Positions 1,375 through 24,055 of a stretch of 27,304 nt of DNA are shown in pieces; position 1 is the first letter of the stretch; each line of letters starts with the position of its first letter. Below the pieces are notes generated by a model. That model ran no database searches. It saw only the letters and a program-made list of their open reading frames with translations, and was not told the origin of the DNA. Origin of the DNA: a virus. Location: the IMG/VR virus record IMGVR_UViG_3300030616_000070, positions 1 through 27,304 of that record; one strand, written 5' to 3'. The translations under genes and the position numbers were made by a program.

Positions 1375-3750
1375 CTACTCCCCAAGCTCGGCGCTGACGT
1401 CGAGCTCGTCGATTCCGAGCATCCAGGCATCCGGCCACGGAAGCGGCTCGGCGGTGCGGATTTCAATCAGGTGCGTGTGCGCCGGCTTCATGTACTCCGC
1501 GACCCTTCGTACGATTGCCTGTTGCTCTGACGTTAGCACGTTCTCCGTCTCGATGTCGAATGAGTACAGCGTGTAGCTGTCGCTCGCCGCGAGGACCGCA
1601 CCACCCGTCGAGCCGACCTCGTTCACATCGAAAAGGAGAAGCGCGTTGGCCGAGCCGCCCGTGACCTGAATGGACGCCTCGACCCCTGCTTTGTTGCTAT
1701 AGACGACGACCTGCCCGTGGTCGGTTCCTATGATGAGCGCGGTCGCGAGGCCGAGCGCGGCCTGTGCTGCGCCGGCCGAAACCTGCTGCGAGGCGAGCGC
1801 GCCCCGCGTGATCGTCTCAAGCTCGACCTGGCCTCCGGCGTCCGAAGCGATCACGAATCCTACGAGCTGCTCCGTGATAGCTGCGGCGACCTCCGCGGCC
1901 GTCGCTGCACCAGGCGTGGCGATGTCCGCAGCGGTGAACGTTACCGTGTGCGTCGTAGGCCCATCGACCTGAACGTCGAGGGAGTCCCCAGGAGACACGG
2001 CAAACGGCTCTACGGCTGCCCCTACCTGGAGGGCAGGCTGGCCCGGGAACGCGGCGTACGCGCCTCCTCCGCTAGCCTGGGCGAGGATTACGGCTGCGAC
2101 CTCGGCTGCGGTCGCCGCAGTCGGGTCTCCGAAGTCGGCCGGGACGAACGTCACGACCTCGGGAGGTCCACCGTCAGGCGTGATCTCCAGCTCCCAAGGC
2201 GCACCGATGGAGGTGAAGTCCCAGGTATCCCATCCGAGGCTCATCACCTCCGCGATCCCGCCGCTCCCGAGGGCGTCGATCCCGAGGACCCATCCCCCCG
2301 CAGAATACTCGACGCAAGTCACGACCTCGCCGAGCAAGAAGAAGACCGTTTGCTCGATGCCCCAGGCCGTTCCCTTGCTCTTGTAAATCTCGATGAGAAT
2401 CCGCAGCAGCTTCCGCTGCTCGTTCGGCGTGAGGTCGAGCTCGGTCCACTCCGCGAACGGGTTGCCCATGTCGTAGAGCATGGCCGCAATCTGCTCGTCG
2501 GTCGCCTTGTCGGGGTCCCACTGATCGGTGAAGCGGTCGACGTAGTACAGCATCCACCCGAGGACCTCCTCAATGCAGTTGGAGAACCGCTCGAGATCCC
2601 TGGTCGCGTCCTCGATTCTGTTCTTCAGTGGCACCATGTGGCGCCAGTGGGAGAAGGCCCGCCCCGCGACCGGCTCGGGGGTGAACCCGTCGAAGTCGAC
2701 CGTGTTGTAGACGGGGTCCATCAGGTTCCCCGCATCGTCCTCGATCGCCGCGCCCGCCGTGACCTGATAGCGGCACCCTGGCGTCATCTCCCAATTCAGC
2801 GTGATGTCCCACTGCGAGGCCGGCGTGACCTGCCTCCATTCCGGGCCGGTCGTAGTCGGCGTGTGACCGTAGAGGAAATGCCCGTACAGCGCGCCCCCGT
2901 AACCTCCCATCGTGGCCGCGTTGTCGACGAGCTGCCAGTACGTCGAGTCGCTCTCCTGGAAGGCAAGCTGACCGATGTCCTCGGAGGTGAAGCCCGTCGC
3001 GGCCAGGCGCGCGGCTTCGTCGGCGTAGGTCCACTCGACCGGCACGGTCAAGGACGGCGCGTCAGCCTCCGCGATCGACACGGCCTCGATGGTGACACCG
3101 GGCAGCGGATCAACGTTCCACCGCACGAAGGCGTTGAGCCAGTTTGCGAGGAGGAGCACAGAGCCAGCTCCGCTCGTAGCCATGCCGTCGTCGAAGGTCA
3201 CGCGCACCGTGAACGGGTCGATCCCTTCCGCAGCCACGACCGTCGGCGGCGTAAGGTCCTGAATGGTGAACTGATACTGGAAGCTGTAGACGACCGGCGC
3301 CGGCGCGGAGTGGCCCCAAGGGAAGTGACCCCAGGGACCGTGACCCCAGCCCGCTGCGCCGACGAGATCGACCTGCACATCGACGACCTGCTCGGACTCG
3401 AAGACGTCGGGAGCCTGAGACGCGACGACCTTCCAGAAGGCGTACGGCGACGAGACGGTGTGCGTCGTGATCGTGCCGGTCCAAGGAGCCGTCCACGTCG
3501 GGATGCCAGCGAAGGAGAGCACGGCCGCGCCCTCAACCATGACGTCGAACGAGGGAGGGGAGAGCGAGCTGTCGGTCGGGTCGCCTTCGAGGTCGACCAG
3601 GACGAACTCGACGTCCGTGTCCTGGGCAATCCCCGTCTCGCTCGGCTGCGGGTCGCGCTGGATGAGGACGTACCGCCCAGACGCAGAGATCTCGACTGCG
3701 GCCTCATCGATGCCGAGCGTTGCGAGTAGCTGGTCGACCGTCAGCCCCAT
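1375..3750 (-). CDS. I: Tail protein I (baseplate wedge) with inserted beta domains
   Basis: The protein has 791 residues, several times the length of P2 gpI. Residues about 370-475 match the tail protein I family: an acidic helical stretch, then YKSKGTAWGIEQTV, the family's KGT signature. The family's C-terminal end reappears at residues about 727-765 with AEYMKPAHTHLIEI. Between them, residues about 515-710 hold inserted beta repeats with the phrase ATAAEVAA twice. The N-terminal 360 residues look like beta-rich domains and include a WGH repeat (134-147) and an LYGH repeat (288-296). GpI-like proteins join the gpJ wedge to the fibres, which fits its place between the fibre genes. The ATG at 3750 follows a GAGGAG site by 6 bases. 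I am confident in the family; the roles of the added domains are unknown. Confidence 0.85.
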   Translation of the reverse strand: MGLTVDQLLATLGIDEAAVEISASGRYVLIQRDPQPSETGIAQDTDVEFVLVDLEGDPTDSSLSPPSFDVMVEGAAVLSFAGIPTWTAPWTGTITTHTVSSPYAFWKVVASQAPDVFESEQVVDVQVDLVGAAGWGHGPWGHFPWGHSAPAPVVYSFQYQFTIQDLTPPTVVAAEGIDPFTVRVTFDDGMATSGAGSVLLLANWLNAFVRWNVDPLPGVTIEAVSIAEADAPSLTVPVEWTYADEAARLAATGFTSEDIGQLAFQESDSTYWQLVDNAATMGGYGGALYGHFLYGHTPTTTGPEWRQVTPASQWDITLNWEMTPGCRYQVTAGAAIEDDAGNLMDPVYNTVDFDGFTPEPVAGRAFSHWRHMVPLKNRIEDATRDLERFSNCIEEVLGWMLYYVDRFTDQWDPDKATDEQIAAMLYDMGNPFAEWTELDLTPNEQRKLLRILIEIYKSKGTAWGIEQTVFFLLGEVVTCVEYSAGGWVLGIDALGSGGIAEVMSLGWDTWDFTSIGAPWELEITPDGGPPEVVTFVPADFGDPTAATAAEVAAVILAQASGGGAYAAFPGQPALQVGAAVEPFAVSPGDSLDVQVDGPTTHTVTFTAADIATPGAATAAEVAAAITEQLVGFVIASDAGGQVELETITRGALASQQVSAGAAQAALGLATALIIGTDHGQVVVYSNKAGVEASIQVTGGSANALLLFDVNEVGSTGGAVLAASDSYTLYSFDIETENVLTSEQQAIVRRVAEYMKPAHTHLIEIRTAEPLPWPDAWMLGIDELDVSAELGE

Positions 3751-6532: not shown

Positions 6533-7693
6533 TCAAACCTCCTGAAGCGTCAGCCTGAAGCTGACCTCGCACGGTCCCGTGAGGTGGCGAACCGGTGCCT
6601 TGAAATCTGTCCAGCGACGGCGCTCGCCAGGAACGATGACCCGCTCGGCGTAGACCTCCGCGTTGATGATGATCTGCATCAGCCATTCGTAGTCGATCGG
6701 GGTCGGCATCGACGTGCATGCCAGGTACGACGCGACGACCTCGCTCGGGGTCAGCGTCACGTCGAGCATTCGCATCTCGTCGAAGCGTCCCCAAAGCTCT
6801 CGATCCCCCGCCGTGATCGGCGTCCCAGGTGCCGCGGCAACGGGCGAGTTGCTCACGGGCGAGAAGGGAAGGAGCGGAGTAGGGTTGCCGTCGATGTAGC
6901 AGAGCAGCCGATCCCACAGCGCCGCGAACCGATCCCACGTCACCGTGATGAGCTTCCAGCCAGGGTTCGGCGTGTCCCACGTGAAGGCTGAGAAGACGGA
7001 CCCCGTGTTCCCGGTGTAGTAGTGCGTGACCGAAACGTTCCACTGGTGCGCGCCGGGGCCGACCGCTCCGCCGAGTTGCGCGGAGAAGCCGTTGGGAACG
7101 CCGTCTACGCACCGGAACAGATCCGGGCTAACGCCCCACGATGTCGGATGCGCGACCGCGTCGAAGTCGAACCACATCTGGAAGGTGTAGTTGTCGAGCG
7201 AGCCGCCCGGAAACCACTGCGGCGTGTTGGCGCCGAGGAGCTGTGCGGAGAGGCTTCCGATCGGGACCTGCCGGCACCTCGTGAGCAGGGGCGAATAGCT
7301 CTCGTTCGCGATCTCGATGTCGCCCTGGTCTACGAGGTCGAATCCGCCGGCGACAAGGTTCCGCGCCGTGGGCAAACCGATGTCGTAGTTGAAGTGCCAG
7401 AGCGGGTCGTAGTCGTCGGGGAAACCGGGCGCGGGTTGTGCCTGGCCCATCGCGACTCCAACCGTGTCCATCGTCGCCGCGACGAGGTCCCAATCCGAGA
7501 GGTCGATGACCTGTGTGATCTCCGAGTGGTCTCCAGGCGTGAGCGTCGCGGGGTCGCCCCCGCTGAGCACGGCCTCCTCGAGCGCACCGTCCGCGCCGAG
7601 GACGAAGACGTGCGAGCCGTCAGGAGCCGTGAAGCTCTTGGGGATCGAGCGCCCTTGGCCGGCGCCGCGCAGCCTATCGAACCACGTGATCAT
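6533..7693 (-). CDS. Lectin-fold (LamG-like) structural protein
   Basis: The frame can be read from 7786, but I place the start at the ATG at 7693 (MITWFDRLRG), which overlaps the preceding stop in a TGATG junction, giving 386 residues. The longer version would overlap the previous gene by 94 bases and begins with arginine-rich sequence of out-of-frame character. The central part has the features of a concanavalin/laminin-G-like jelly roll: GWKLITVTWD, CYIDGNPTPL, and FDEMRMLDVTLTPSEV, the last being the usual closing strand plus helix of LamG-like domains. Such domains in phage tails are usually carbohydrate-binding or structural decorations. Its place among fibre and baseplate genes supports a virion surface role. 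Ligand unknown. Confidence 0.75.
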   Translation of the reverse strand: MITWFDRLRGAGQGRSIPKSFTAPDGSHVFVLGADGALEEAVLSGGDPATLTPGDHSEITQVIDLSDWDLVAATMDTVGVAMGQAQPAPGFPDDYDPLWHFNYDIGLPTARNLVAGGFDLVDQGDIEIANESYSPLLTRCRQVPIGSLSAQLLGANTPQWFPGGSLDNYTFQMWFDFDAVAHPTSWGVSPDLFRCVDGVPNGFSAQLGGAVGPGAHQWNVSVTHYYTGNTGSVFSAFTWDTPNPGWKLITVTWDRFAALWDRLLCYIDGNPTPLLPFSPVSNSPVAAAPGTPITAGDRELWGRFDEMRMLDVTLTPSEVVASYLACTSMPTPIDYEWLMQIIINAEVYAERVIVPGERRRWTDFKAPVRHLTGPCEVSFRLTLQEV

Positions 7694-8451: not shown

Positions 8452-11400
8452 CTACGTGGGGAACATCTCGTCGGGCCATTCCCCGTCGAGGAAGTCCTCC
8501 CGTGGTCTGAATCCATAATCGAACATCGCCTGCGTCAACGCGACCATCGAAAGGTCCGTTACCCAGACAGCCGAGGGGTCGACCCAACCCTCGATCGTGA
8601 ACCTCTCCAGAATCGTCGGGTCAGGGACGGCTACGTCGAACACGGCGACAGCCATGTCGTTCTCCTTGACGTACAGCCCAACGACGGAATCGAGCAGGAT
8701 TCCAAACGAGTTGGCGCTCCATGAATCGAGAAGGAACCCGTCGTCGGTCGCGACGCCGGCCGGCAGCGCCGGGTACAGCCACGCCGGGATGCTGACCGCG
8801 GTCGCGTTCCCGTTCGGACTGAGGGAGAACAGCCCGAGCTTCTCGCGCATGTCGCGGAAGCGGTCTGACTCCAGTGCCGCGAGGCCGAACCAGATCCCAG
8901 CGAGCGTAGCTCCATCCCAACCGAACGTCAGTCCCTCCTGGTCGCCTTCCGACCACGAGCCGAACTCCAGGGCGAGGCCTGGGAGGAACGCAGCCACCTG
9001 GGCGTTCAGGTCACTCACGAGCGTAGCGATGTCAGCGTAGCTCGTCGTCGGTAGGGAGAACATCGCAGGGATGCTCGCATCGGTCAGGATGATGAGCTGG
9101 TTCTCGTTCGGCGGAATGAACAGAGGGAACTCGATTGCCTCCCCGCGCATGACCCCGTTCGGCGCCGTGTCTGGACACCACCTCTGCCCCCCAGAGGTCG
9201 AGAGCGGATCGTTGCCCCACGCCTCCTCGAAGGACTCGACGCAAAGCGGGTCGACGTTCGTGCCGAAGACGTGGTCGTACCACCCATCGAACCCGGTCGG
9301 ACCGGCGTACGGCCCGAGGTTGTCCTGGCACGGCGGCGTGAGCGTGTACGCGTCCATCCAGGGCGGGCCGACGTAGGTCGGGGAGGACCCAGGAGGAAAG
9401 CCCCACAGCGCGAAGATCTCCATCGTCGTCTCGAAGTTGCCGACGCCCTCGTTGAATAGAGCCGCGGCGATGGTCGCAGCCGGAAGATCCCCGAGCCAGT
9501 CTTGGTTCTCCCCGACGATGACCTCCTCCCAGGTAATCGGTGAGTGGTTCGTCAGGACGTAGTTGCGGTTCACGTCGATCTGCCACGCGGCCTTGCCCAC
9601 ATCGTCGGCCGTGAACGGTCCCGCGGCGAGGCGCGCAGTCTCGTCTGCGAACGCCCACGAATACGACCACAGCCAGCCGCCCTCAAACCCTTCCCGGCCG
9701 TAGCGGTACGGCGCGAGGTCGGCGCGGTAGGCGCAGAAGTCGGCCCACCCTCCGACGTCTTGGAACGACTGCCACTCCCACCCCTCGGCTTCGCCTGGTC
9801 TACCGGACTCCGCAGCCGTCTCGAACGAGGGGTTATTGAACCCGCCGTTTCCCTCCTCGTCGAAGGCGTGTCTGATGTCCGTGTCCGTCGCCGGCTCGTA
9901 GAACGTAGCGCCTCCGAACCAGTGACCGACGAACGACTTGCGCGCCGCGAGTGGGTTCCCGCTTCCGATCGTCGCGACCCACGTCTTGCTGATGTCCAGC
10001 GACGGGTCCACCTTCGTCGTGAGGGTCACTCCATCTACGACGATCCGAAGCTCCCGGTTGTCCCGGTTGATGAGGTAGCCGAAATCGCCTGTCCAACTGA
10101 ACGCGATGTCGACCAGGCGCTCGTCGTACTCGTCGATCCGCAGCGGCGCCGTGAGCGTGAGCCAGCCCGGTGTTACTCCGTCCCAATATGCAACGACGAG
10201 CTCGCCGCCGTTGTTGGGTTGCCAGTAAATCCCGATGCCGTTGAAGTTCGGGTCGGGGTTCAAGGTGCGGAAGCCACCGAAGCCGAAGGAGGCCAGGCAC
10301 CGCTCACCGCCCCACGTCCCGAGGCCCTTGAGCTTGTACCTCCCGACGTAGGTGAACGGGAGCTGTGCTCCGAAGGCGTCTGAGTCGGCCAGACAGATCG
10401 GAACGTACTTGCCGATCTGCGGTGTGATCGCGATGATTCTCCGGTCCTCAATCGCGGACCCGGCGAGTACGCTGTCCTCGTTGAACAGGACTCCCCAGCC
10501 GCCGTCATCATCGAAGTCGCGCACCTTCTCCGGGGCGTACCCCGTCGGAGTCCCTTCCGGGTAGTGAACGAAGTCGATGACCGGTGTCTTCGCGTAGACC
10601 GGCCCGAGGTACGGAGGAATCGGTGACAGCCCCATCTCTTCGAGGCGCTCGAGATACTCGCGCGCGTTCGCCGCGTTCATGTCGCAGACCCACGGTTCGA
10701 ACTGCGAGACGGAGACCTGCCTGAAGTACGTATCCTGATACGGCGCCGGGTCGGGCATCACGCCAGGAAAAACCCTCGTCGCGCCGTGCACGATCTGACC
10801 GCTTAGGAGGACGAGATCCTCGAGGCCTGGAGCCGTGTAGCTTTGGAGATCGACGATGTCGCTCCTGATGTCGACCCAATCCGACAAGCCAGGGTCCCAA
10901 TACTGCTCGCGCACCGTCCACGCGGGAGGTCCACCCGTGATCACGAGCCGCACGCGACCACCGTCGACACCGTCCCACGGAGAGACGGCTGACTCGAAGA
11001 GTCCGAATGCTCCAGTAGGGTTGTCGACGTAGGCTCCGCGATACTCCCAGGAGAGGTCCCCGAGGCGCTTGCCGTGGAGCGCGTACATCAGGTAGTCAGC
11101 TTGCTGATTCTTGCCGTCGAACAGGGTGGCGCACAGGCCCGTCCATCGCCCTCGGGAGTCGGACGCATTCCTCTGCACAGGGTCGCCCCAACGCACCTGG
11201 AAATCGACGTTCAGAACGTCCTGCACGACCGTAGCGATCCACCCTCGGAGGCCCATGCGGTAGCCGACGTTGATATAGCGGTACGTCTCGCCGCCGTAGG
11301 GATCTGCCGCGTCGCCTGGTCGCGGTTCTCCGTTCGCCGGATCTGCGCCGAAGAACGAGAGGTTATCCGGCATGTACTCGTAGCCGCGGACGAGGAGTCC

Positions 11401-11616: not shown

Positions 11617-13146
11617 CTAAATCGCCGCCGCCGTCTCGCCGTTGATGACGGTCAGGGAGCCGAGCGCCGGAAACTCCCAGTTGTTGATGGTCACGTCGTC
11701 CGTGATCCCGTTCAGCTGCATGGTGTGTTCGAGCTTCCGCACGCCTTCGGTATCGCGGATCACGTTGAAGACATCCGACCACGGAATCGCCCCCGCGGGA
11801 GCGCCCGTGCTGTCCTTGTAGTAGTACCCGAAATCGACGTTGGGGTTCGGCTCCCCGCTCGCCAGCATCGGCTCGAAGTAGTCCTCCAGGTTGGCCAGGA
11901 TCGACGCCTTGACCGCGCTCGGCGTGTACCCTTCCCGCAGCCAGATGGTGCAGTCAACATCGACGTCCTTGTACACGGGCGGGAGGACCTCGAGCTGGAA
12001 CGTCAGCGTGTGCGGGTAGCCGTCGGGCGGCGGGAGCGTGAGGATGTCCTCAACCTGCTGCAACAGGAGCGTGCTCGGCGTCCCTCCGGTCGTCGGTACG
12101 ACGAACAGCTTGCCTCGGTTCTCCCCGATGACAGTGTCCTCGTTCGAGGTCAGCATCAGCGCGCGGCCAACACCCGTGACGCGCTTCGCGTTGATCTCGA
12201 AATCCTCGCGCGCCACGGTGCGGTTGATGGCGCGGATCGACTCCGGCGCGTTGACCCTGGCCGCATCGACCTCCTCTCGCGGTGTTCCTCCCGTCGCAGC
12301 GTTCGCGTTCGTCGCGGAGATGTACGCCACGGTGCCGACGCTGTCCTTGAACGTGCCGACCGCCTTGATGAGGGTGTTGGCCTCGACGTTGCCGAAGATC
12401 CCTCCGCCCGTCTTGTAGGTGATGGTGACGTTGCCTACGGGGATCGCCCCGTTCTGCCCATCGCCGAAGATCACGGTCGCGCGGTCGTTCTGATCGACCT
12501 GCACGCGGTAGTGGAGATCGGTCGGCCCCGAGTTGTAGAACGAGTCGACCCGAGTCCATCCCGGCTGCGTCGGCGTCGAGACTCCTTCCGAGTCCCAGAG
12601 GAACGGGCCAAAGGGCAGCAGGATCTCCTGGTCGCCGCGGCCGTTTGAGGCGACGACGTACGGGGTCTGCGTCGTGCTGTGCTCCCAAGGGAATGTCTTG
12701 CTCGTCTCCCCGAGTCCGAGGTTGAACGAGACGGTCCCTTGAAGCTCGCCCTTGATGGGGTCCGTGACCTCCTGAGTCTGCACCGTGACCGGCGACGAGG
12801 CCGGGGTCACGATCCCGGTGAGCGCGGTTGCGTTCGTGATCGTCAGCGTGACGTCGGTAGTCGCGGCCGCTGCCGGTGTTAGCTCGTAGCCGATGAGCTT
12901 GCACAGGGCGATCATGTTCCGGCGAAGCTGCACGAAGGCGATGCGGCCCTCTCGCGCTTGCTGGTCCTGATAGAAGGTCAGCACGTCGAGTATCCAGGAG
13001 AAGCTCTCGACGAGGATGTTGCCGAAGTTCGCGACGGCCTCGTCCGACCAGTCGGGGAAGACCGAGCGCACGAGGTTGAAGACTCGCTCGCGGATCGATG
13101 CGAAGTCCTTGTCCGTGTAGTCGTAGCTGGTAGGCAGTAGCGTCAT
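11617..13146 (-). CDS. J: Baseplate wedge protein J (gp6-like)
   Basis: The product has 509 residues and belongs to the baseplate J family (P2 gpJ, Mu gp47, T4 gp6), which forms the dimeric wedge ring around the central hub. The N-terminus (YDYTDKDFASIRERV), the following FPDWSD and the helix with NILVESFSWILDVLTFYQ are typical. Near residue 305 the line INRTVAREDFEINAKRV is the family's usual signature, followed by a domain with repeated beta-alpha pattern. The C-terminal part (PYHTLTFQLEV-like, then a helix with ILANLEDYF) also fits. It lies 1 base after the gp25-like gene stop, the standard W-J order. The ATG at 13146 has AGGAGGGG upstream. Confidence 0.93.
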   Translation of the reverse strand: MTLLPTSYDYTDKDFASIRERVFNLVRSVFPDWSDEAVANFGNILVESFSWILDVLTFYQDQQAREGRIAFVQLRRNMIALCKLIGYELTPAAAATTDVTLTITNATALTGIVTPASSPVTVQTQEVTDPIKGELQGTVSFNLGLGETSKTFPWEHSTTQTPYVVASNGRGDQEILLPFGPFLWDSEGVSTPTQPGWTRVDSFYNSGPTDLHYRVQVDQNDRATVIFGDGQNGAIPVGNVTITYKTGGGIFGNVEANTLIKAVGTFKDSVGTVAYISATNANAATGGTPREEVDAARVNAPESIRAINRTVAREDFEINAKRVTGVGRALMLTSNEDTVIGENRGKLFVVPTTGGTPSTLLLQQVEDILTLPPPDGYPHTLTFQLEVLPPVYKDVDVDCTIWLREGYTPSAVKASILANLEDYFEPMLASGEPNPNVDFGYYYKDSTGAPAGAIPWSDVFNVIRDTEGVRKLEHTMQLNGITDDVTINNWEFPALGSLTVINGETAAAI

Positions 13147-21784: not shown

Positions 21785-24055
21785 TTAGGCCGCGAGGCTT
21801 TCCTCGAGTGCCCTGGTGTCCTGCGTGATGAGCAGGATGATCCAGTCGGTCGGCTTGTTCGTCGCGAGGCCGATCCGACCGGTCATGATGCCCGCGAACT
21901 CGTTGGCCACCGGGTTGAGCGCGTTCGAGAAGTCCACGAAGAACGCGCGAGCCGGGTCCGTCGAGCGGAAGGCTCCCTTGTTCATTTCGGCCTCGAGGAA
22001 CACGCGGCACGCGCGCTCGGCGCGCATCCGGTTGGTGCGGTTGTTGAAGCGGTGGCGGAAGATCTCCAGGCCGTTCTTGAGGGACTCGGCAATGAAGATG
22101 ACCCCGCGCCTCTCGCCGATGCTCGGGAAGTTGCCGGTCGACTTCAGCGTGCGGCTGCCGTCGATGTACCACAGCCCACCGGTCGTCCGGTTGAACGGGT
22201 TGATGCGGTACGGGTAGACGTAGTCGCGCGTCTTCTCGTCGACGCACTCGTGCTCGGTCTGGCCCGTGGGGTCGTCCTCCACGTCGGTCATGCCGCGGAT
22301 AACTCCCCAGCCCTCGCCGAACCCCGCGGGGGCCTCGTACACCCCTCCGCGCCTCTGGTCGTTCGCCGCGCACTTCCCCGCGATCCAGCCCGAGGGCGGG
22401 ATCGTGATCTCGTCGTCGGTGCCGAACACGGCGGGCTGCGGGTTGCCGACCTTGATCCACGGCCAGTGGATGGCGCCGAACTCGCTGTACTCGAGGAGGC
22501 CCGCGCTCGTCAGGTACGTGACGACCTGCACCTTGGTGTTCTGCGGGGGGCAGTCGAGGAAGCAGAACATCGAGCCGTTGCGGTCGATCTCGGCGTAGTC
22601 GAGCATCCCCTTGTGCACGACCTCGGTGTAGAGGCCGGGAACGATCAGGATGCGGCCCGTCTGCACGCGGTCGAACGTGTACAGCCCGGTCGGTCCCGCG
22701 ACGTTGCCGACGTAGTCCGCGTCCGCGATCCCGATGAGGCCGTCGTCCCCTCCAGCGAGCGCGGCCGAGGTCCCGTTCGCGGGGCGCTTGATGCCGAGCG
22801 GCGTGAGGCCCTGGTCGTCCACCGCGATGAGCCGCGAGCCGAGGTTGATGTCGTTCAGGACCGTCTCGACGTAGTCGGCCGAGGTGTCGTCCATCGTGAC
22901 GTTCGGCCACGCCTCCTTCACGACCCCGCTGACGACGACGGACAGGTTGAAGTATCCCGCCTGACCGTTGGTCGCGTCCGCGATGGTGATCGTGATGTCG
23001 TCGGTGTAGCTCCCCGGCGTCTTGCCCTCGACTTCGAGGGTCGCCTGGACCGCGGCGTCGGCGCCGTTGTGGAGCAGGTTATCCAGACCGAAGTCGACCG
23101 TGCTGGCCGGCATGACCTGGATCTGCGCCGCGAGTCCCGTCGCGACCGTCTCGATGGTGATGGTCCCCGTGCCGCCGACGATGACGTCGACCAGGCCCGC
23201 GAGTCCGACCGCCACCTCGATCAGGGCCTCGACCTCCGTCGCGAGCACGGCGACGATGTCGCCCACGTTGCCGGGGCCGACCACGGGGCCGGGAACGAAC
23301 GCGAGGATCGGGGCAGCGGTACCGCCCGCGATGTCCAGCGTGTAGTTGTTCCCGCTGCCGTCCGTCTCGAGCTGGAGTCCGTAGGGACCCGGAGCCGGTC
23401 CGATCACGTCGCACTTGGCGCCGCTGATGTCGGAGTTGATCCTGGCCGCGACCTCCAGACCCGTCGCCGCGCCCGGGACCGCGAAGTCCGTCGGCAGGAA
23501 CGTGACCGTCTGGATCACGCCGTTCACGACGACGCCCAGAGTCTCACCGCCGATCAGCGCGTAGGGGCCGACAGCCGGGGCGTTGGGAAGCTGCGCCGGG
23601 GTGCCGTTGAACGTCACCACGACGGGGCCGGCACCGATGTCGATGTCGATGTGCTGCCCATCGGTCAGCACGAACGGAGCGAGGTCCGTGCCGGGGCCGA
23701 CCACGGCGGGAGTCGCGAGCGAACCGCTGTTGTTCAGCATGACGCTGCCCTTCGCGGCGGTCGCGGTGTTGGGATCGGTCAGGTCAGTGAAGTGGCACGT
23801 GCGGGAAACCCACATGAACGTGCCGCCCTGCCTGAAGAATCCGTACGCGGCCACGGCCACGTCGGAGTCCAGGGTGAACCCTCCGAAGATGCGGTTGTAA
23901 TCCTCGAACGAGGTGAGCAGTTGCGGATCGGCGATGGGGCCGCGCTCCGTGATCCCGAGGCACAGAGTCACCGCGCTCGGCAGCGCGGCGATGGTCGGGA
24001 TCGAAGGCTCCTCCTCGAGGATCACGACTTTGCTGGCAAGAAGCTCTGCTGCCAT
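21785..24055 (-). CDS. Tail sheath protein with an inserted beta domain
   Basis: The 756-residue protein is a phage tail sheath. The N-terminus (residues 10-90: SKVVILEEEPSIPTIAAL, GITERGPIADPQLLTSFEDY, GFFRQGGTFMWVSR) and the C-terminal contractile core (about 456-756: GRILIVPGLYTEV, YPYRINPFNRTTGGLWYIDG, RRGVIFIAESLKNGLE) are typical. A third normal segment (KTPGSYTDDITITI) begins at about residue 345. Between them, residues about 100-335 are an extra region with two beta-repeat units; this insertion makes it long for the family. It probably forms an outer domain on the sheath surface. The ATG at 24055 has AGGAGG 6 bases upstream, beside a hairpin. The tube gene follows. Confidence 0.95.
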   Translation of the reverse strand: MAAELLASKVVILEEEPSIPTIAALPSAVTLCLGITERGPIADPQLLTSFEDYNRIFGGFTLDSDVAVAAYGFFRQGGTFMWVSRTCHFTDLTDPNTATAAKGSVMLNNSGSLATPAVVGPGTDLAPFVLTDGQHIDIDIGAGPVVVTFNGTPAQLPNAPAVGPYALIGGETLGVVVNGVIQTVTFLPTDFAVPGAATGLEVAARINSDISGAKCDVIGPAPGPYGLQLETDGSGNNYTLDIAGGTAAPILAFVPGPVVGPGNVGDIVAVLATEVEALIEVAVGLAGLVDVIVGGTGTITIETVATGLAAQIQVMPASTVDFGLDNLLHNGADAAVQATLEVEGKTPGSYTDDITITIADATNGQAGYFNLSVVVSGVVKEAWPNVTMDDTSADYVETVLNDINLGSRLIAVDDQGLTPLGIKRPANGTSAALAGGDDGLIGIADADYVGNVAGPTGLYTFDRVQTGRILIVPGLYTEVVHKGMLDYAEIDRNGSMFCFLDCPPQNTKVQVVTYLTSAGLLEYSEFGAIHWPWIKVGNPQPAVFGTDDEITIPPSGWIAGKCAANDQRRGGVYEAPAGFGEGWGVIRGMTDVEDDPTGQTEHECVDEKTRDYVYPYRINPFNRTTGGLWYIDGSRTLKSTGNFPSIGERRGVIFIAESLKNGLEIFRHRFNNRTNRMRAERACRVFLEAEMNKGAFRSTDPARAFFVDFSNALNPVANEFAGIMTGRIGLATNKPTDWIILLITQDTRALEESLAA

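Follow-up and report, generated by a model that had tools for sequence, protein, structure and literature searches.

The insert in tail protein I of an environmental phage is likely a mobile virion module with a nested architecture and a predicted FliD-like fold

The insert that interrupts tail protein I (gpI) in the sequence analysed here is, with good probability, a mobile virion module, an add-on that would decorate the tail and the baseplate; this applies to the reading as a whole, and any specific role of the module is less certain. The window, by which we mean the whole stretch of 27,304 nucleotides (the 27.3-kb virus record IMGVR_UViG_3300030616_000070), holds a contractile-tail module in which every gene lies on the minus strand. 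In addition to gpI and the tail sheath protein, it encodes neck proteins, tube, tape measure and hub, the baseplate J protein (11617-13146), a 1051-residue protein and a LamG protein. The relatives of the window are environmental phages of roughly 78-100 kb (IMG/VR).

The protein that carries the insert (791 aa; 1375..3750, minus strand) was recognised as gpI, a Tail_P2_I-like baseplate wedge protein, from Pfam Tail_P2_I and 12 related loci. The match to Tail_P2_I (PF09684) spans residues 406-481 and is weak (E 0.0053, 17.1 bits, with a cut-off of 20.6). In fold comparisons, the gpI core on both sides of the insert aligns to baseplate chains of 179-190 residues from A-1(L), a Streptomyces injection system and P1, and the highest-ranked chain for the gpI model, 8kea_c, matches this core and not the insert. 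The evidence for an empty site in gpI consists only of these short gpI-like chains of solved baseplates; a scan with the gpI of the L012 phage for an orthologue without any insert returned near-copies only. Searches of isolate phages by tblastn, with gpI and with its insert, gave no match.

The insert is flanked by the Tail_P2_I helical core and by the SYTLYSFDIE...KPAHTHLIEI end of the protein, and the initial annotation had correctly described it as splitting the gpI family domain from the KPAHTH end (residues 755-760). Its proposed extent, residues 515-710, maps exactly to window positions 2208-1621, and the start holds, while the end lies nearer residue 720 than 710. Based on the orthologue alignment, the profile and a model with pLDDT about 90 over most of the insert, we place the whole insert at residues 515-720 (1591..2208, minus strand).

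Specifically, profile matches in gpI fall at residues 520-571 (profile positions 9-59), 582-673 (1-93) and 678-712 (57-93). They correspond to three segments, all on the minus strand: the N-terminal half of an outer, split unit, comprising strand, strand and helix (residues 515-575; 2026..2208), an inner complete unit (residues 582-675; 1726..2007; E 4.5e-27), and the C-terminal half of the outer unit, a strand hairpin (residues 676-720; 1591..1725; E 3.5e-8). When joined, the outer halves behave as a single domain, which covers profile positions 9-93 with 66.8 bits and E 7e-21. The AlphaFold model of gpI residues 363-791 runs from strand-strand-helix through a complete strand-strand-helix-strand-strand-strand unit to strand-strand, the outer-unit elements in the model being strands 157-163 and 169-173, helix 186-196, and the later strands 318-323 and 331-336. 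The gpI insert is one complete unit nested inside a second, split unit. We reject a tandem-repeat reading, since the two outer halves complete each other along the profile, one on each side of the inner unit; the two units originally proposed are both there, but one of them lies within the other and not beside it. The phrase ATAAEVAA reported for both units is found at residues 546-553 and 616-623, and VELETITRG at 642-650. In the gpI of the L012 phage the outer unit is retained, but a different domain occupies its loop, which fits a loop that accepts inserts. As a separate observation, the N-terminal Ig-like region of the same L012 protein contains an extra complete unit (6571-6849), a third insertion site in this protein family.

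The same module is present in the tail sheath protein (756 aa; 21785..24055, minus strand; phrog_15814, E 1.9e-169; phrog_23 tail sheath, E 1.5e-25). Composition-adjusted BLASTP aligned gpI residues 568-716 with sheath residues 149-297 at E=5.1e-10, and the Smith-Waterman score of the two inserts was 154, against a mean of 53 +/- 8.7 for shuffled sequences (0 of 500 shuffles as high). A profile built from ten gpI units recovers the sheath units. In addition, leave-one-protein-out profiles, from which all gpI or all sheath sequences had been removed, still recovered the excluded protein, with E=1.9e-21 for the inner gpI unit, 1.5e-9 for the N-terminal half of the outer gpI unit and 4e-25 for the complete sheath unit; shuffled or reversed ORFs (n=5,918) yielded nothing below E=0.09. 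These results bear out the claim of one repeat in both proteins, and the proposed check by a profile made from one protein's units, which does recover those of the other, gave a positive answer. A, T, G and V are abundant in these segments, and a composition artefact would make unrelated, Ala/Thr/Gly-rich and beta-rich inserts merely look alike; the composition-adjusted BLASTP, the shuffles, the leave-out profiles, the reversed and shuffled ORF controls and the matching predicted folds rule this out and leave it a negligible probability. Early PDB matches of a narrower profile to a copper ATPase and to CRP were dismissed as chance, since with the wider profile they vanished or stayed weak. Bacterial genomes scanned with the alignment pattern of the unit gave no confirmed match, and one weak match in a Deltaproteobacteria MAG (E 0.007) concerns a Cys-rich protein and was taken as chance.

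In the sheath, conserved N-terminal residues, 120 in number, precede the complete unit (residues 164-260; 23276..23566, minus strand; profile E 1.3e-30), and the phrases AATGLEVAA and LQLETDGSG quoted for this protein were located at residues 196-204 and 227-235. On either side of the complete unit lie the parts of a probable outer unit. The N-terminal hairpin (residues 125-160; 23576..23683, minus strand) is a weak match to profile positions 1-32 (E 0.003, fragment alone) that keeps the same register in relatives. The helix plus hairpin (residues 264-325; 23081..23266, minus strand) matches profile positions 33-78 with E 0.006 at full length and 1e-4 as a fragment (0.0096 and 1.4e-4, respectively, with the leave-sheath-out profile), and was found in nearly all sheath relatives. 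From this order of hairpin (127-153), complete unit (164-260) and helix plus hairpin (268-315), the sheath probably has the same nested plan as gpI, the insert lying ahead of the helix instead of behind it. The model of the full sheath protein has low confidence (mean pLDDT 37, values of 80-90 being reached only by the complete unit), and the nesting in the sheath therefore rests on weak profile matches.

The gpI and sheath units were modelled separately, and the predicted structures were compared with solved chains by VIA-align. In these models the module is a domain of about 95 residues, with the order strand-strand-helix-strand-strand-strand and the fold of the 'IN' domains of the bacterial flagellar cap and filament, FliD D2-D3 and flagellin D2. 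For both units the sheath protein gp6 of Vibrio phage XM1 ranks near or at the top of the solved matches, through its insertion domain, or InD (residues about 96-216), with Z 10.6 and rmsd 2.4 over 102 residues for the gpI unit and Z 9.8 and rmsd 2.5 over 103 residues for the sheath unit. FliD from several species and Vibrio flagellins follow (predicted models; Z 9.3-10.2 for the gpI unit and 8.5-9.5 for the sheath unit, rmsd 2.4-3.4 over 90-106 residues), and then the sheaths of E217, PhiTE, Mu, A-1(L) and Milano. The predicted gpI and sheath units thus agree in matching XM1 gp6, FliD and flagellin, so that the refuting outcome named at the outset, differing folds, did not arise for these two proteins, and the likeness to the hook-IN motif, initially put down as only visual, turns out to be a real fold match with FliD D2-D3 and flagellin D2 (Z about 9-10). 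Fold matches in BFVD name the same protein types, namely J-like, kelch, sheath, wedge and tail protein I. XM1 gp6 is also the best PDB sequence match of the 47-unit profile (A5), with E 0.0018 over residues 122-200, the same region as in the fold match; this E value is modest but agrees with the independent fold result, and we take the XM1 InD to be related to the module in sequence. The upper ranks of the fold lists, led by FliD, flagellin and sheath domains, contain no phage Ig-like domain, which by itself is no proof against an Ig relationship, and Pfam Ig matches among the 47 units are isolated and weak (Big_3_3, E 0.019).

The link in sequence between the module and hook-IN runs via intermediate phage units. 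Pfam Flagellin_IN (PF07196; curated cut-off 22.7 bits) matches three related phage units inside their boundaries, one of them, a J-like unit, above the cut-off with 23.5 bits. The window gave no match to this family at E<=10, the best window-type member having E 0.15 or worse, and its units are therefore not filed as Flagellin_IN members. When the unit profile was compared by hhalign with single flagellar proteins, E. coli FliD gave P 0.13, not significant although aligned at the right residues, and FlgK gave P 0.8. A recent capture from the host, in which a piece of FliD or flagellin was taken to mimic or interact with flagella, was proposed by the XM1 authors (PMC10457771) and would account for the fold match and for the Flagellin_IN matches in related phages; with Flagellin_IN silent in the window, no significant alignment to FliD, and phage units as all of the closest sequence relatives, we judge it quite improbable.

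A weaker copy of the module had also been suggested in the 1051-residue protein, near residues 860-930. At this site (residues 835-935; 8803..9105, minus strand), pairwise comparison with the units gave Z 0.7-1.9, the unit profile found no match in the window's 1051-residue protein, and the profile-profile comparison reached P=0.066 over only 19 columns. All three fall short of significance, and this third copy is not supported in the window.

By sequence profile, relatives of the window carry the module in six or more additional proteins that either belong to the virion or have their genes among those of virion proteins. Baseplate J-like proteins have up to four or more units each, and profile-significant units occur in a 434-436-residue protein adjoining J, in the kelch protein of a related phage, in a 570-residue ORF, in a 213-residue ORF of the L012 phage and in the LamG protein of the L010 and L011 phages, whose window orthologue is without the unit. 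The same difference is seen for the p176 homologue, encoded beside neck genes, where a unit is present in the L012 phage and absent from the window orthologue. The L012 homologue of the 1051-residue protein has weak but still profile-significant matches, at sites other than the one proposed in the window protein (256-338 and 420-503, E 2e-5 to 5e-3), and a match in a phrog_1623 head protein is weak. Taken over the units outside gpI and sheath (J, LamG, p176 homologue, kelch and small ORFs), profile E values go down to 1e-30. A cultured isolate, Myxococcus phage Mx1 (OR576727.2), has units in its J-like and kelch proteins and is a possible laboratory system for the module.

We also built a tree of 66 units, many forks of which are unresolved. 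One clade of the L012 phage joins units from the sheath, the 213-aa ORF and a 916-aa ORF (99/80), and the unit of the p176 homologue groups with one LamG and one gpI unit (96/87). In the window lineage, gpI and sheath units mostly cluster by protein, and transfer between those two is therefore old. This clustering would also be expected if the sheath unit were simply an ordinary sheath insertion/extension domain, the gpI insert stemming from it by one old duplication and the rest being a coincidence at the level of fold, and the solved sheaths of XM1, E217, Mu, PhiTE, Milano and A-1(L) do have this fold at the same place (PMC10811340). Such an origin is nonetheless rather unlikely, in view of profile matches to J, LamG, p176-homologue, kelch and small-ORF units that go beyond folds, of presence and absence differing between orthologues, and of the cross-protein clades. 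The same three lines of evidence sustain the early proposal that one domain type has moved among virion proteins. Found in gpI, in the sheath and in at least six further proteins, the module therefore acts like a mobile building block with which phages extend their virions. More tentatively, it could be an actively mobile domain, duplicated within a genome so that a copy from one virion gene enters loops of further virion genes, or another copy of itself; sheath, baseplate and neck would then share a surface coat made from a single domain family. This is possible but, in our judgement, doubtful.

Units diverge faster than the cores of their host proteins. The gpI of the window and that of L001 are 95% identical in the core and 57% in the inner unit, and the sheath and that of L018 are 98% identical over the first 100 residues and 72% in the unit. 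Relaxed constraint could be an alternative source of this fast divergence. The columns conserved among units are core hydrophobics, glycines and turns, a single Glu and a single Asp being the only charged ones, and include no candidate catalytic set or binding signature. These features bear on whether the module is a receptor- or glycan-binding adhesin, with reversible host attachment as its main job and divergence tracking host surface variation. Fast divergence relative to the cores would suit an adhesin, as would the presence of LamG- and kelch-type proteins, often adhesive, among the carriers, and an adhesive role of additional sheath domains has been put forward before (PMC9230969). On the other hand, a conserved surface or aromatic patch is absent, only fold-keeping residues being conserved, and the carriers also include internal-type or structural proteins (J, sheath and the p176 neck-region protein), so that an adhesin is conceivable without being the explanation that we favour.

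Our preferred reading, a mobile add-on module, would work as follows. In the sheath the module occupies the site of the known insertion/extension domain, and in gpI a complete copy has been inserted into the loop between the helix and the second hairpin of another copy. The module would be tolerated in a loop of an unrelated core, leaving the core fold unbroken. By analogy with solved sheaths it would face outward, and it would decorate tail and baseplate, altering their surface in packing, spacing or perhaps weak adhesion. The module would presumably take no part in contraction or catalysis, and may move by recombination between gene copies. The position and orientation of the XM1 InD in the sheath have been described (PMC10457771), and according to the Adele paper a sheath domain of the same fold does not contribute directly to contraction (PMC12846349).

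Among known systems, the InD of XM1 gp6 (PDB 7kh1; PMC10457771) resembles the window units in its FliD-like fold (rmsd about 2.5 over 102-103 residues) and is inserted after about 95 residues of the sheath, compared with about 120 for the window sheath unit. The sheath copy is of this XM1 type, having the same fold within the N-terminal domain of a contractile sheath, whereas the gpI copy is not. Moreover, the XM1 InD is a single copy confined to the sheath, while here the module is found in a number of proteins and, in gpI, in nested form. The sheath extension or lateral domains of E217, Mu, PhiTE, A-1(L) and Milano, together with the Adele prediction (PMC12846349, PMC10811340), share both this fold (Z about 4-8) and its place in the sheath; they are fold-level parallels, whereas here a sequence profile links units across many proteins of one phage group, together with nesting and presence/absence differences. 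FliD D2-D3, flagellin D2 and Flagellin_IN share with the units the IN-type order of hairpin, helix, strand and G-x-V/L-x-I/L-x-S hairpin, but belong to different proteins and a different setting, and the window units score nothing with PF07196. The FD domain of the crAss001 auxiliary capsid protein (PMC10172136) likewise has a FliD/flagellin-like fold on the virion surface, but this is a head protein, and the parallel is one of fold. Ig-like domains on phage virion proteins, as described by Fraser et al. 2006 according to the citations in PMC9230969 and PMC10684548, behave like the module in being non-essential-looking and swapped among unrelated virion proteins. Such exchange is what profile matches and tree indicate for the module, whose fold, with one amphipathic helix packed on a beta sheet or sandwich and solved matches to FliD, flagellin and sheath domains, is probably unlike Ig.

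The fold and its occurrence in different proteins are already published: the XM1 paper of 2023 noted that the InD resembles FliD and called it unique to XM1 (PMC10457771), the crAss001 paper of 2023 reported a FliD-like domain on the capsid (PMC10172136), and the Adele paper of 2025 listed the fold in sheaths, podovirus nozzles, auxiliary capsid proteins, FliD and flagellin (PMC12846349). What is new is a mobile family definable by sequence, its new carriers and the nested insertion. In the open-access papers searched, which leave out most subscription papers, we found no description of a sequence-level family across carriers, of the gpI, J and LamG sites or of the nesting; the fold is ordinary, and the extent and architecture are new. 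Extra domains of phage tails have usually been described one structure each and recognised by fold comparison alone. With a family that can be defined by sequence, that moves among sheath, baseplate, neck and fibre-type proteins and that nests inside itself, one can ask what purpose decoration serves, by what route domains pass from one virion gene to another, and whether the 'IN' domains of flagella and phages have a common ancestry. The family corrects the statement that the InD is unique to XM1, and the unit profile offers annotators a means of labelling many so far unnamed parts of proteins from environmental phages.

Some minor observations concern the window and its genes. A 9.8-kb contig of a Deltaproteobacteria MAG (JAFGQN010000116.1), the one bacterial contig found to carry a related J gene, is syntenic with the window from the tape measure to J, and its J is 47% identical. 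It may be a weak hint at the host group, or a contaminating phage, and is too little for naming a host. The 479-aa protein encoded at 2-1438 has a weak F-box-type Pfam match (E 0.0014, below cut-off) which, in a phage protein, is probably chance.

As regards gpI itself, a Trp-Gly-His motif (WGHGPWGHFPWGH; residues about 135-147) is conserved throughout the aligned gpI relatives (L001-L012), some of which have a second, YGH-rich copy of it (YGGALYGHFLYGH). In L010 and L011 (6001-8144) gpI is encoded in two ORFs, the Ig-like N-terminal part stopping and the Tail_P2_I part beginning in a different frame, and the split is identical in both contigs. Finally, gpI residues 240-265 (window 2956-3033; WTYADEAARLAATGFTSEDIGQLAFQ) and residues 651-676 of the 1051-aa protein (9580-9657; WAFADETARLAAGPFTADDVGKAAWQ) share a stretch with 57.7% identity (E 1e-5). 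This stretch is present in the gpI of L001-L005 and missing from L006-L012, and therefore may be another exchanged module.
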